Origin: Gordonia araii NBRC 100433
Lineage (GTDB): Bacteria; Actinomycetota; Actinomycetes; Mycobacteriales; Mycobacteriaceae
Assembly (NCBI RefSeq): GCF_000241265.1
Contig: NZ_BAEE01000048.1
Coordinates: 62,001-126,000, forward strand
DNA length: 64,000 nt
Direction of reading: 5' to 3'
A program made the translations under genes and the position numbers. How positions within the stretch are numbered: the first letter of the stretch is position 1; each line of letters starts with the position of its first letter. Positions 3,086-58,115 of this stretch are shown here, piece by piece. Under the pieces are notes generated by a model that saw nothing but the letters and a program-made list of their open reading frames with translations, was not told the DNA's origin and ran no database searches.

Positions 3086-4007
3086 AGACGGCGACACCCA
3101 CGCATAGTATCCATGCGAGTGCGAGGACCTGCAGGACCCGGTCGCCCAGGGCGATCTCCTCGGGCTCGCCCGCCTCGCCGCCGTCGACGTCGACCGCATA
3201 GCGCAGGATGGCGATGGTGAACGGCACCATCGACACGGCGTAGAAGATGTTGTCGACATCCTTGCCGTCGACGACGTGCGCGTCGAAGGCCCACAGGCCG
3301 TAGCAGAGGACGACGGCGGTGGCCGAGAGCGTCCACACGAACCTCAGGTAGCCGGTCGTGTAGTACTCCAGCGACTTGCGGATCTTCGCACCGGTCATCT
3401 CGGCCAGCTGCAGCTCGGCGTAGCGCTTGCCGGCCGCCATGAACAGCGAGCCGAAGGCCATGACGAGCAGGAACCACTTCGAGAGGTCGATCCCGGTGGC
3501 AGCACCACCGGCGATCGCGCGGAGCAGGAATCCCGAGGACACGATGCAGATGTCGAGGACGGCCTGGTGTTTGAGGCCCAGGCAGTAGCCGAGCTGGATC
3601 ACCAGGTACACGCCGATGACAACGGCGGTCTGCCAGTTGGCGAGCAGTGCGATACCGACCGAAGCGGCGGCGAACACGACCGCCAGCAGATAGGCCAGGT
3701 TGACCGGTACGACCCCGGCCGCGATCGGACGGAAACGCTTTGTGGGATGGTTGCGGTCGGCCTCGACGTCGAGTGCGTCGTTGATCAGGTAGATCGCCGA
3801 CGCGGCAAGGCAGAAGGCGACGAAGGCGATGCCGGCGCCGCGCCAGACGTCGACGTTGTCGAAACGCAACTGGCCGGCCGCCAGCGGCGCGGCCAGGACC
3901 AGGACGTTCTTGACCCACTGCCGGGGACGGATGGCCTTGAAGAGCCCCGACGCCAGAGTCTTCGGCGGTCCGACTACCTTGCCGCTCTCGATCGGCTCTT
4001 CGCTCAT
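3063..4007 (-). CDS. ubiA: Decaprenyl-phosphate phosphoribosyltransferase (UbiA family)
   Basis: Integral-membrane UbiA-superfamily prenyltransferase. It condenses decaprenyl phosphate with phosphoribosyl pyrophosphate to make decaprenylphosphoryl-5-phosphoribose, the first step toward the arabinose donor used by AftB. At 314 residues it has the usual length and about eight or nine hydrophobic helices. The first metal-binding motif NDxxDxxxD is seen as NDALDVEAD (residues 76-84), followed by NHPTKRFRPIAAG. The ATG at 4007 lies 5 nt after the stop of the upstream PAP2 gene. The 3' end overlaps aftB, so the genes are probably translationally coupled. It is the counterpart of Rv3806c. Confidence 0.93.
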   Translation of the reverse strand: MSEEPIESGKVVGPPKTLASGLFKAIRPRQWVKNVLVLAAPLAAGQLRFDNVDVWRGAGIAFVAFCLAASAIYLINDALDVEADRNHPTKRFRPIAAGVVPVNLAYLLAVVFAAASVGIALLANWQTAVVIGVYLVIQLGYCLGLKHQAVLDICIVSSGFLLRAIAGGAATGIDLSKWFLLVMAFGSLFMAAGKRYAELQLAEMTGAKIRKSLEYYTTGYLRFVWTLSATAVVLCYGLWAFDAHVVDGKDVDNIFYAVSMVPFTIAILRYAVDVDGGEAGEPEEIALGDRVLQVLALAWILCVGVAVYVYPNWF

Positions 4008-18275: not shown

Positions 18276-19730
18276 ATGACCACACGTGCCCGCCGCTCAC
18301 TGCTTGCCGTCGTCGTCGCGGCTCTGACGGCTTTCACGCTGCTGTCGTCCGGATTCACGACGGCCGCTGACGCCGCTCCGTCGACAAGTCCCGCACCGTC
18401 TGCGGCGGCGAAACAGCCGCGGGTCCAGCCGGTTCTGCCCTTCCCTGTCCCACCGGCGCTGCCCGAGTTCGACCGCGACTTCTACCTCCCCGCCAAGAGC
18501 AAGTACAAGGACCTGCAGCCCGGTGAGCTGATCGCCGCACGACGGGTCAACCTCGCCACCTATTCATTCCTGCCGCTGAACGTCGACGCGTGGCTGATCT
18601 CGTACCGCTCGACGAACTCGCGCGGCGAGGCCATTCCCGCCGTCGCGACGGTGGCTAAGCCGAAGGGACCGCGGCCGCACAAGACGACGCGAGTGCTGTC
18701 CTTCCAGATCGCAGAGGACGGCACCGCCCTCTACTGTTCGCCCTCGTACCAGCTACAGATGGGCTCCATCCCGTCGAGCATCACCGGCAGCGTCGACGCC
18801 AACGCCGAGGGCCTGCTGATCAACTCAGCGCTCGCGTCGGGCTGGACACTCGTCATCCCCGACCACCAAGGTCCTGACTCGGCCTACGCCGCCGGCCCGC
18901 TCGCCGGACGCATCACCCTCGACGGCGTTCGTGCCGCGCAAAACTTCAACCCGCTGCGCATCACCAAAGACGCCAAGATCGCCATGACCGGCTACTCCGG
19001 CGGGGCGATCGCCACCGGCTGGGCGGCCGAGCTGCACAAGACCTACGCGCCTGAGCTCAACGTCGTCGGCGCGGCGATGGGCGGCGTCCCCGCAGACATC
19101 TCGGATCTGCTGAACAACGCGAACAACAACCTGACCTCCGGGCTCATCATGGGCGGCATGATCGGCGTCGCCCGCGAATACCCGGAACTCGAACGGTTCA
19201 TGCGCGCGAAGATGAATCCGCTCGGCCAAGCACTGGTCGCGTCGAAGAACCCGATGTGCCTGACCTATCACGCCGCCATCGCACCGTTCATCAACATCAA
19301 GGGGCTGTTCAACGTGCCCGGCGACCCCATGCGGCATCCGACGGCACGCAAGGTCCTCGACCAGCTGCGCATGGGTCGCACCACTCCGGAATTCCCCATG
19401 CTGATCAACCAGGCCGTGATGGACGAGGTCGTGCCGGTCGGCCAGGTCGACCGGACCGTGCGCCAGTACTGTTCGCGCCCGGGCGCCCAGATCGAGTACG
19501 TCCGCGACCACTTCAGCGAGCACGTCACGCTGGCAGCGCTCAGCTTCCCGTCGTCGATGGTGTGGCTGAACGACCGGTTCAACGGCAAGCCCGCTAAGAA
19601 GCGCTGCAGCAGATTCGAGGCCGGAACGGTCGCCTTGAACCAGAAGGCGTGGCCCGCGTTCGCCAACCTCGTCGGCGACAACCTCGTCGCGATCGTCGGC
19701 ATGCAGATCGGTCAGCCGGGTAGGCGCTAG
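18276..19730 (+). CDS. Secreted lipase (LIP, secretory lipase family)
   Basis: Exported lipase/esterase of 484 residues. The signal peptide is about residues 1-34 (ending TTAADAAP), followed by a Pro-rich spacer. The secretory-lipase family pattern is clear: VLSFQIAEDGTALYCSPSYQ, then WTLVIPDHQGPDSAYAAG and LDGVRAAQNF. The nucleophile elbow is MTGYSGGAIATGWAAEL (Ser near residue 248), with the late Asp in MDEVVPVGQ and the His in EYVRDHFSEHVTL. It hydrolyses triacylglycerols or other esters outside the cell. The ATG at 18276 has a GGGGAG ribosome site. Likely controlled by the upstream TetR protein; its transcript would end at the hairpin element at 19738. Confidence 0.88.
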   Translation: MTTRARRSLLAVVVAALTAFTLLSSGFTTAADAAPSTSPAPSAAAKQPRVQPVLPFPVPPALPEFDRDFYLPAKSKYKDLQPGELIAARRVNLATYSFLPLNVDAWLISYRSTNSRGEAIPAVATVAKPKGPRPHKTTRVLSFQIAEDGTALYCSPSYQLQMGSIPSSITGSVDANAEGLLINSALASGWTLVIPDHQGPDSAYAAGPLAGRITLDGVRAAQNFNPLRITKDAKIAMTGYSGGAIATGWAAELHKTYAPELNVVGAAMGGVPADISDLLNNANNNLTSGLIMGGMIGVAREYPELERFMRAKMNPLGQALVASKNPMCLTYHAAIAPFINIKGLFNVPGDPMRHPTARKVLDQLRMGRTTPEFPMLINQAVMDEVVPVGQVDRTVRQYCSRPGAQIEYVRDHFSEHVTLAALSFPSSMVWLNDRFNGKPAKKRCSRFEAGTVALNQKAWPAFANLVGDNLVAIVGMQIGQPGRR

Positions 19731-19737
19731 ACGGAAA

Positions 19738-19808
19738 ACAAATTCGTCGCCTCTGGCGGGCTCCGTGGTCATATCGACCACGACGTGCCGCAGGGGCGAC
19801 GAATTTGT
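19738..19808. terminator. 71-nt bipartite hairpin element, copy 1 (bidirectional terminator)
   Basis: Symmetric inverted repeat of geometry 11-15-19-15-11. The outer arms are ACAAATTCGTC (19738-19748) and GACGAATTTGT (19798-19808). The apex is CGTGGTC-ATATC-GACCACG (19764-19782), and the middle stem pairs partially (8 of 15). It starts 7 nt after the lipase stop and ends 9 nt before the convergent membrane-protein stop, with A- and T-rich outer ends as in a two-way terminator. A second copy with the same ends and apex is at 41494-41564. Confidence 0.75.
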
Positions 19809-26600: not shown

Positions 26601-26675
26601 CCGCAAACCCAGCAGTTGGGGACATACCCAACACCGAAAACCTGTCGGGTTTGTCGCGAGGTGCGGGGTTTGCGG
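26601..26675. terminator. Large inverted repeat between DUF4873 and CPBP genes
   Basis: The outer arms CCGCAAACCC (26601-26610) and GGGTTTGCGG (26666-26675) are fully complementary. They enclose two small hairpins, GTTGGG-GACATA-CCCAAC (26615-26632) and AAACC-TGTCG-GGTTT. It probably ends transcription of the leftward AurF/DUF4873 pair before the CPBP gene. The sequence is unrelated to the 71-nt elements. Confidence 0.55.
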
Positions 26676-40859: not shown

Positions 40860-41489
40860 GTGGCTGAATACACTCTGCCCGATCTCGACTACGACTACGG
40901 CGCGCTGGAGCCCCACATCTCGGGCCGCATCATGGAGCTGCACCACGACAAGCACCACGCGACCTATGTGAAGGGCGCCAACACCGCGCTGGAGAAGCTG
41001 GCCGCGGCCCGCGAAGACGGCACGATCGCCGATAAGGTCTACGGGCTCTCGGCGAACCTGTCCTTCCACCTGGGCGGCCACACGAACCACTCGATCTTCT
41101 GGAAGAACCTGTCCCCCAACGGCGGCGGCGAGCCTACCGGCGACCTGGCGGACGCGATCAACAACGACTTCGGCGGATTCGACAAGTTCCAGGCTCACTT
41201 CACCGCCGCTGCCACGACCCTGCAGGGTTCGGGCTGGGCGATCCTCGGCTACGACACCATCGGTCAGCGCCTGGTCATCCAGCAGCTGACCGACCAGAGC
41301 GGCAACACCTCGGCCGCTCTCATCCCGGTCGTCATGCTCGACATGTGGGAGCACGCCTTCTACCTCGACTACCAGAACGTGAAGCCCGACTACGTCAAGG
41401 CGTGGTGGAACGTCGTGAACTGGGCCGACGCCGGCGAGCGCTACGACCGCGCGGTCAAGCAGGGCTCGGGCCTCGTCGTTTCGGCCTGA
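40860..41489 (+). CDS. sodA: Superoxide dismutase (Mn/Fe)
   Basis: Dismutates superoxide; 209 residues in the usual two-domain fold. Metal ligands are His in [13 protein letters not shown], His in NHSIFWKNL, and Asp and His in [15 protein letters not shown]. At the position where M. tuberculosis iron SodA has His145 (YDHQTN) this protein has Gln (TDQSGN). Gln at this position is characteristic of manganese forms, so Mn is the likely metal. The GTG at 40860 has a GAAGGGA ribosome site. No signal peptide. Counterpart of Rv3846; its transcript should end at the 71-nt hairpin at 41494. Confidence 0.95.
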
Positions 41490-41493
41490 TACG

Positions 41494-41564
41494 ACAAATT
41501 CGTCCGGCATAGCCACCGTCGTGGTCATATCGACCACGACCGGCGCTATGCCGGACGATTTTGT
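41494..41564. terminator. 71-nt bipartite hairpin element, copy 2 (bidirectional terminator)
   Basis: Same 11-15-19-15-11 layout as the element at 19738. The outer arms are ACAAATTCGTC (41494-41504) and GACGATTTTGT (41554-41564), and the apex CGTGGTC-ATATC-GACCACG (41520-41538) is identical. The middle arms CGGCATAGCCACCGT and ACCGGCGCTATGCCG differ in sequence from copy 1 but pair at 12 of 15. It fits exactly between the sodA stop and the convergent ECF stop. Confidence 0.78.
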
Positions 41565-57703: not shown

Positions 57704-58115
57704 CCCCCACCCTTCGTCGTCGCACTGCTGCGCCGCAGTGCAGAATATCGAAGCTGCTGCCGACCCGCCGTCTCAGCGTCCTCCAGGTGAATCGGCCGCG
57801 AGCGCCGTCCACAATGCCTCGCGGATGACTTCGGCTTCGGGCACCGACGTATGCGGAGTTGCCGACTCCTGCCCTCGGTGGTCGAGTGCCGACGGAGCTT
57901 GCGACGTCGGTGTATCCCCTCGGTGGTCGAGTGCCGACGGAGCTTGCGACGTCGGTGTATCGAGACCCCGTGAGGTGTCATGCCAACTCCATTGAGCGCG
58001 TTGACATCTCGTCTCACCAGGTCTCGATACACTTCCTCGGCTAGCGCCTCGGAAGCACTCGACCACCGAAGCGGGTTGTTCTCGGCGGATATTCGAGCAC
58101 TCACCACCCGCGGAT
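57704..58115. other. Repeat-filled intergenic region between gltD and the DUF6777-like gene
   Basis: A 412-nt gap. From left to right it holds the hairpin at 57722-57741, a short minus-strand stretch (57773-57845) that would encode EAEVIREALWTALAADSPG, then two direct and one inverted copy of the TGGTCGAGT...ATCGAGACC repeat (57874-58071). The short coding stretch resembles the end of a ribbon-helix-helix antitoxin and may be a remnant broken by the repeats. Confidence 0.55.
57874..58071. repeat. Composite of two direct and one inverted dispersed repeat copies
   Basis: Copies 1 (57874) and 2 (57919-57967) are direct 45-bp repeats starting CTCGGTGGTCGAGTGCCGAC; the second ends GTATCGAGACC. 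An inverted copy at 58020-58071 starts GGTCTCGATACACTTC and ends GCACTCGACCACC. Each has its own inner hairpin (CCGAC/GTCGG or CTTCC/GGAAG), while the ends are shared with the array at 52417-52582. The outer inverted arrangement resembles paired REP elements. Confidence 0.85.

Follow-up and report, generated by a model that had tools for sequence, protein, structure and literature searches.

A dispersed hairpin family in Gordonia araii and its relatives, associated with AbiEi-Vsr nuclease genes and resembling REP elements

A stretch of 64,000 nucleotides from Gordonia araii NBRC 100433 (contig NZ_BAEE01000048.1, positions 62,001 to 126,000; hereafter the window) contains two 71-nt hairpins, copies 1 and 2. 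They belong to a dispersed family whose relatives in other Gordonia genomes flank a gene for an AbiEi-Vsr nuclease. Both copies are imperfect palindromes with 33-nt arms and a 5-nt loop, in agreement with the 11-15-19-15-11 geometry described in an earlier note on this DNA. The identical apex claimed there was recovered as an exact CGTGGTCATATCGACCACG in both copies; the window holds two matches to this apex at up to three mismatches, against 0.04 expected, and none of 100 shuffles reached two. The outer arms ACAAATTCGTC/GACGAATTTGT are also shared, with the single mismatch reported earlier falling in copy 2. DNA folding of the two strands, compared with shuffled sequences, gave z = -8.1 and -7.6 for copy 1 and z = -10.5 and -9.9 for copy 2.

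Both hairpins fit closely between the stop codons of convergent genes, as had been pointed out; the distances called with a rough gene caller are 7 and 9 nt for copy 1 and 4 and 8 nt for copy 2. The gap filled by copy 1 measures 87 bp and separates a secretory lipase gene from a convergent gene that lacks a Pfam match; the gap of copy 2 measures 83 bp, with a superoxide dismutase gene on one side and a CbiQ-type cobalt transport gene on the other. Of the 11 pairs of convergent genes called in the window, nine lack such a hairpin. A simple terminator scan returned no site at copy 1 and one weak site at copy 2, and the T-rich bases lie within the base of the stem.

The window copies are two of many, which bears out the suggestion of a structured family. 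Searching the G. araii genome with the apex pattern at up to two mismatches gave eight matches, and its reversed control gave none; with a looser pattern the counts were 69 and 24, respectively. Eighteen copies from this genome align without gaps across 87 columns, and a covariance model built from them (R1) found 20 distinct places in the 3.9-Mb genome with an expectation value (E) of 2e-6 or lower on the better strand. All 20 were matched on both strands, as a palindrome should be. Rfam reported no family at gathering score, either in the 64-kb window or in a set of 20 loci. Information content exceeds 0.9 bits only at positions 3-11, 27-44 and 61-71 of the 71, and positions flanking the hairpin reach at most 0.81 bits. 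The full pairing ladder over the 18 copies pairs in 69.9% of cells and is weakest in the middle, so the element is best described as a palindrome that is imperfect and constrained at its ends and apex. The 15-nt middle arms singled out in the earlier note pair well in both window copies, but are the weakest part over the 18. RNAalifold predicted just 10 pairs for the same alignment. No consistent target-site duplication or flanking motif was found across the 20 copies; one 7-bp direct repeat is present, at locus L044.

The G. araii copies are concentrated at gene ends. A stop codon lies within 25 nt of one hairpin end in 18 of 20 copies, compared to 3.8% of 71-nt segments placed at random in the window, and some copies carry a stop codon inside an arm; genes were called roughly for this count, and open frames that continue past the end of a locus were counted in. 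By gene context, 10 copies are convergent, six tandem and two divergent, and two were not called; two of the convergent copies have the far gene more than 700 nt away. The enzymes described for repetitive extragenic palindromic (REP) sequences are the REP-associated tyrosine transposases (RAYTs). The RAYT family (Y1_Tnp, PF01797), found in 5 of 14 control genomes, has no match in the G. araii genome.

Related hairpins occur across the genus. At E 0.01, R1 matched 18 of 25 Gordonia genomes (G. araii included; G016 and G017 by weak partial matches alone) and, weakly, one of 16 genomes outside the genus. A second covariance model, R2, was built from 32 copies, two of them at nuclease units (L041 and L068); at E 0.001 it matched 21 of the 25 Gordonia genomes and, again weakly, 2 of the 16 others. 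Copies 1 and 2 are among the training sequences of both models. In the 32 copies, which come from 12 genomes, pairing occurs in 78.9% of cells, compared to 36-44% for slid versions, with double changes at 27 of 33 base pairs; none of 500 shuffles reached the observed covariation. The general plan, with TCGTCC-like outer arms, a variable middle, a G-rich apex and a loop of CATAT or similar, is kept across genomes. Between genomes the arms differ, and sometimes the length too, and copies within one genome are alike. A nearest-copy comparison used 67 copies, after removal by hand of L064, L069-L074, L088, L106, L114, L115 and L118 and of second copies within L086, L091, L095 and L113. In 50 of 66 cases the nearest copy lay in the same genome, compared to a mean of 8.4 and a maximum of 23 in permutations; copies of G014, G015 and G018 never had a same-genome nearest copy. 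Locus L086 of G006 contains three family hairpins in 2.5 kb (1137-1223, 1501-1587 and 3524-3610), two of them nearly identical, and the protein search put no nuclease gene on the contig that bears them.

The hairpin-flanked gene encodes a protein of about 267 amino acids in which an AbiEi-like DNA-binding half is fused to a nuclease domain of the Vsr / I-Bth0305I type. The N-terminal half resembles AbiEi, and the C-terminal half is predicted to adopt a nuclease-like fold, that of the Vsr-like/EDxHD catalytic domain. Foldseek returned no match to the protein under E 0.001, its profile retrieved from PDB sequences four rows, all with E of at least 0.29 and no nuclease among them, and an NCBIfam search gave none. 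The protein alignment (A5) consisted of 33 named loci minus L123, L144, L146, L149, L151 and L152. No AbiEii toxin was present among the four flanking open reading frames of the two units scanned, one of which has no Pfam match. Of 246 genomes scanned from the class, 150 have a match to MTES_1575, the strongest matches being within long open frames. MTES_1575-type frames near 300 amino acids occur several times per genome in g18, a genus of the same family that is probably Mycobacterium. Coordinates of the window hairpins, their neighbors and a MTES_1575-type gene of G. araii are collected in Table 1.

Table 1. Hairpin copies and associated features in and near the window (window coordinates unless a contig is named; bit scores are for covariance models R1 and R2).
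Feature	Position	Strand	Remarks
Hairpin copy 1, 71 nt	19738..19808	+	Orientation by CATAT apex; R1 81.4 bits, R2 74.7 bits
Copy 1 outer arm ACAAATTCGTC	19738..19748	+	Pairs with 19798-19808
Copy 1 apex CGTGGTC-ATATC-GACCACG, conserved	19764..19782	+	Sequence and information content per column
Copy 1 outer arm GACGAATTTGT	19798..19808	+	Partner of 19738-19748
Hairpin copy 2, 71 nt	41494..41564	+	R1 77.5 bits, R2 73.5 bits
Copy 2 apex, conserved	41520..41538	+	Same as copy 1 apex; sequence
Secretory lipase (LIP) gene	18276..19730	+	Stop codon 7 nt before copy 1
Fe/Mn superoxide dismutase gene	40860..41489	+	Stop codon 4 nt before copy 2
Second G. araii MTES_1575-type gene (294-amino-acid open frame)	C51:59122-59394 (L231)		No clear hairpins at its edges; precedes the window by 2.6 kb

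Palindromes are enriched at the edges of the nuclease gene. Over all 63 nuclease loci, duplicates included, a palindrome score of at least 14 was obtained on either side of the gene at 30, compared to 0.6% of 831 single random windows. Removal of duplicates and near-duplicates (L127, L153, L161, L165, L168 and L170) left 57 loci. At score 12, palindromes are present on the 3' side at 29 of the 57 nuclease loci and at 2 of 151 other gene ends of the same loci, and on the 5' side at 16 of 57 and 1 of 89, respectively. R2 identified 64 sites in these loci (304 kb), 60 of them at nuclease-gene edges. Sites transcribed by hand from the R2 match listing place a hairpin upstream at 25 loci, downstream at 34, on both sides at 21, on either side at 38 and on neither at 19. 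The spacing is also regular: the upstream hairpin ends 35-44 nt before residue 1 in 16 of 25 cases, and the downstream hairpin starts between -19 and +33 nt from the aligned protein end in 29 of 34. Paired hairpins belong to one subfamily at 21 of the 57 loci, beyond the 99th percentile of mismatched loci. A few clear cases had suggested that the pair keeps a fixed direct orientation, but this was not upheld overall (34 versus 21, P = 0.14). Genome G023 lacks the nuclease gene and has no match by R1 or R2; G001, G009 and G011, by contrast, carry the gene and have no R2 matches.

R2 also matched 16 of 17 loci from Williamsia, although no Williamsia sequence was among its training copies. Locus L127, recorded as Kitasatospora arboriphila, is closely similar to L125 of Williamsia muralis and has an identical terminator-like hairpin upstream; this record may be mislabelled or contaminated. 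At 16 chosen g18 loci, a palindrome score of at least 13 was obtained upstream in 14 and downstream in nine. Among 24 loci from other genomes, including the C51 copy of G. araii, such a palindrome is present upstream in five and downstream in 11. The control for both sets, 3.9%, was measured on 190-nt segments, the downstream size, and is about half too low for the 380-nt upstream segments. The palindrome arms at loci beyond the genus are unlike the Gordonia arms. One g18 hairpin, searched at up to two mismatches, has two solitary places in each of the g18 genomes G225 and G089, with 0 and 1 for the reversed control. MTES_1575-type genes of other actinobacterial families (L232, L244, L247, L249, L250 and L251) have strong, unrelated palindromes near the stop codon.

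Comparison of orthologous sites demonstrated that both a unit and a solitary hairpin vary in presence. G014, G002 and G019 share with G018 a hairpin-gene-hairpin unit at one orthologous site. G023 retains both flanks with about 60 nt between them and neither gene nor hairpin, a clean empty site, and in G012 a single hairpin (43.4 bits) is left, together with a shortened remnant. This pattern is compatible with gain or loss alike. G022 (locus L298) is without the unit as well, but it has lost about 150 nt of the left flank and bears a different kind of palindrome there, with CCGCAAACCC / GGGTTTGCGG arms. The window has a long palindrome with the same ends at 26601-26675, which R2 does not match, and these palindromes may represent a second mobile family. 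A further long palindrome of the window, at 57955-58032 with GTGTATCGAGACC / GGTCTCGATACAC ends, adjoins a repeat-like stretch (57912-57960) and appears to be an interspersed repeat of its own.

A solitary hairpin of G014 is absent at all six orthologous intergenic sites, in G018, G022, G002, G019, G023 and G012, and R2 matched none of the stretches compared at E 1. As the unit sites of G014 and G018 are 97% alike, this hairpin looks like a gain in G014. Four relatives (L302, L303, L304 and L307) carry a different, CCCTTCGAGGCTCGTCGCTRGCGCTCCTCGCACCTCAGGGAGCG-like repeat at the empty site. For copy 1, no R1 hairpin was found just downstream of the lipase homologues in the 18 best matches (44-86% identical), one of which has only 70 nt of downstream sequence. 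This does not count as a clean empty site, given that short sequence and a next gene that also differs in the nearest relatives.

We conclude, with a probability of about 0.64, that the hairpins form a family of selfish, REP-like palindromes whose dedicated enzyme is the AbiEi-Vsr nuclease, the presumed driver of their movement. A mobile palindrome with its own gene is the best reading because it accounts for the order and spacing at the nuclease loci, the genome-specific families and the presence/absence at orthologous sites. The arrangement of hairpin, about 40 nt, gene and hairpin is probably the autonomous parent unit, and the two window hairpins would be solitary, non-autonomous copies. 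In the mechanism we propose, the AbiEi-like half would recognize the inverted repeat formed by the outer arms and CATAT apex, and the Vsr-like domain would nick or cut DNA. Repair or strand invasion could then copy the hairpin, with or without the gene, to new sites; both repair from the element and single-strand hairpin intermediates are possible routes. Insertions at stop codons, as the least harmful, would survive. Solitary copies may also be left behind when the two hairpins of one unit recombine, in the manner of solo long terminal repeats. Weighing against this interpretation, and slightly lowering its odds, is G022, which had been a candidate for a second clean empty site; with the left flank lost and another palindrome in place, the site has been rebuilt.

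The earlier note had offered three identities for the hairpins. The REP-like mobile unit fits best, given the dispersed copies, the genome-specific families and the presence/absence pattern. A protein-binding site is likely as well, by analogy: inverted repeats are a reported target of AbiEi, which one half of the partner protein resembles. There is no need to invoke a dedicated bidirectional terminator, because the scan gave no site and one weak site at the window copies and 9 of 11 convergent pairs do without a hairpin. Terminator activity is plausible, with little support from this simple scan. As an explanation of the whole family, conserved bidirectional intrinsic terminators would resemble the TRIT motif proposed for Mycobacterium tuberculosis, of a related genus, in which conserved hairpins are repeated at gene ends. 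Selection would then keep the hairpins at gene ends, and the nuclease gene would merely be one with strong terminators. The hairpin is stable on both strands, and both the proximity of stop codons in 18 of 20 copies (3.8% at random) and the convergent setting of 10 of 18 callable copies, two of them with the far gene over 700 nt away, are what terminators would show. Unexplained, however, are the additional hairpin that lies 35-44 nt before the nuclease start, the arms common within a genome, the fixed apex and the orthologous presence/absence; the T-rich bases are within the stem base, the scan found 0 and 1 sites, and only 2 of 151 control gene ends have a long palindrome. We consider this explanation unlikely.

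Two other accounts assign the nuclease a different part. If it were a separate homing endonuclease that inserts into existing hairpins and duplicates them, with another enzyme moving the hairpins, then the occurrence of both hairpins of a unit in one subfamily at 21 of 57 loci would follow, and an insertion sequence has been reported inside REP sequences (PMC8450116). The unit-free site of G023, however, has no family hairpin, hairpins stand at gene edges in lineages with unrelated arms, and the G. araii genome lacks a RAYT, all of which make this account quite unlikely; the other palindrome in G022 is neutral here. The hairpins could instead be operators of an AbiEi-like regulator, the upstream one autoregulating the gene and the dispersed ones forming a regulon. 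AbiEi is described as repressing its own promoter by binding an inverted repeat of 11 bp whose arms are 27 bp apart (PMC3985639), and the upstream hairpin is in promoter position. Yet the solitary G. araii copies do not precede start codons but lie at gene ends, the second hairpin is at or near the nuclease stop codon, and an operator has no need of a nuclease domain. The operator account is thus very unlikely by itself; autoregulation could exist alongside mobility.

Extending the selfish-palindrome interpretation, we tentatively propose that actinomycetes harbor selfish elements in which an AbiEi-Vsr nuclease, not a transposase, spreads long imperfect palindromes to gene ends, each lineage with its own arms and all with a common unit, and that TRIT-like mycobacterial terminators are domesticated descendants; this broader view is rather less than an even bet. 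A second, unrelated type of enzyme with its own palindromes would mean that such repeats had more than one origin as selfish units. The MTES_1575 gene family, common in actinobacteria, would gain a testable role, and the conserved hairpins at actinobacterial gene ends a possible source.

Several known systems share features with the hairpin family. Among the matches listed for the open-licence literature, no publication joining the AbiEi-Vsr gene family to palindromic repeats was found, nor in that literature a paper on conserved terminators at convergent genes. Integron attC sites have variable apices, and their ends carry R' and R'' boxes. They were considered for the hairpin at the gene's stop codon and set aside from these features alone, no integrase search having been made. 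Kinship between the TRIT motif and the hairpins at g18 nuclease genes is only a lead; the TRIT model is named in PMC3526491. The AbiEi antitoxin of the AbiE type IV toxin-antitoxin system is similar to the N-terminal half and itself binds inverted repeats, whereas the C-terminal half here is nuclease-like. Unlike Vsr-like/EDxHD homing endonucleases such as I-Bth0305I, the present protein is an AbiEi-like fusion with hairpins at both ends of its gene and solitary hairpins genome-wide.

The CGTC-tagged REPs are likewise short palindromes with CGTC; according to PMC3733652 they seem to have no dedicated transposase, and they are reported there from five phyla, Actinobacteria not among them. In the present family CGTC sits at arm positions 8-11 and not as a tag at the end, and several Williamsia hairpins lack it. 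The closest likeness is to REP/RAYT systems (REPtrons; GTAG-REPs), which also have extragenic palindromes in genome-specific families, a repeat-flanked parent gene and solitary copies elsewhere. REPs are described as 20-40 bp long and usually in more than 100 copies, compared to 71 nt and 20 copies here; the GTAG/CGTC end tag is absent, with flanks of at most 0.81 bits and CGTC internal to the arm; and the partner is an AbiEi-Vsr nuclease rather than a Y1 transposase. With no RAYT, no terminal tag and a different enzyme, the family is therefore not a member of REP/RAYT, yet it works like one: it has repeated extragenic palindromes and, with a different gene, a dedicated repeat-flanked partner, an R2 hairpin standing at the edge of 38 of 57 AbiEi-Vsr loci.
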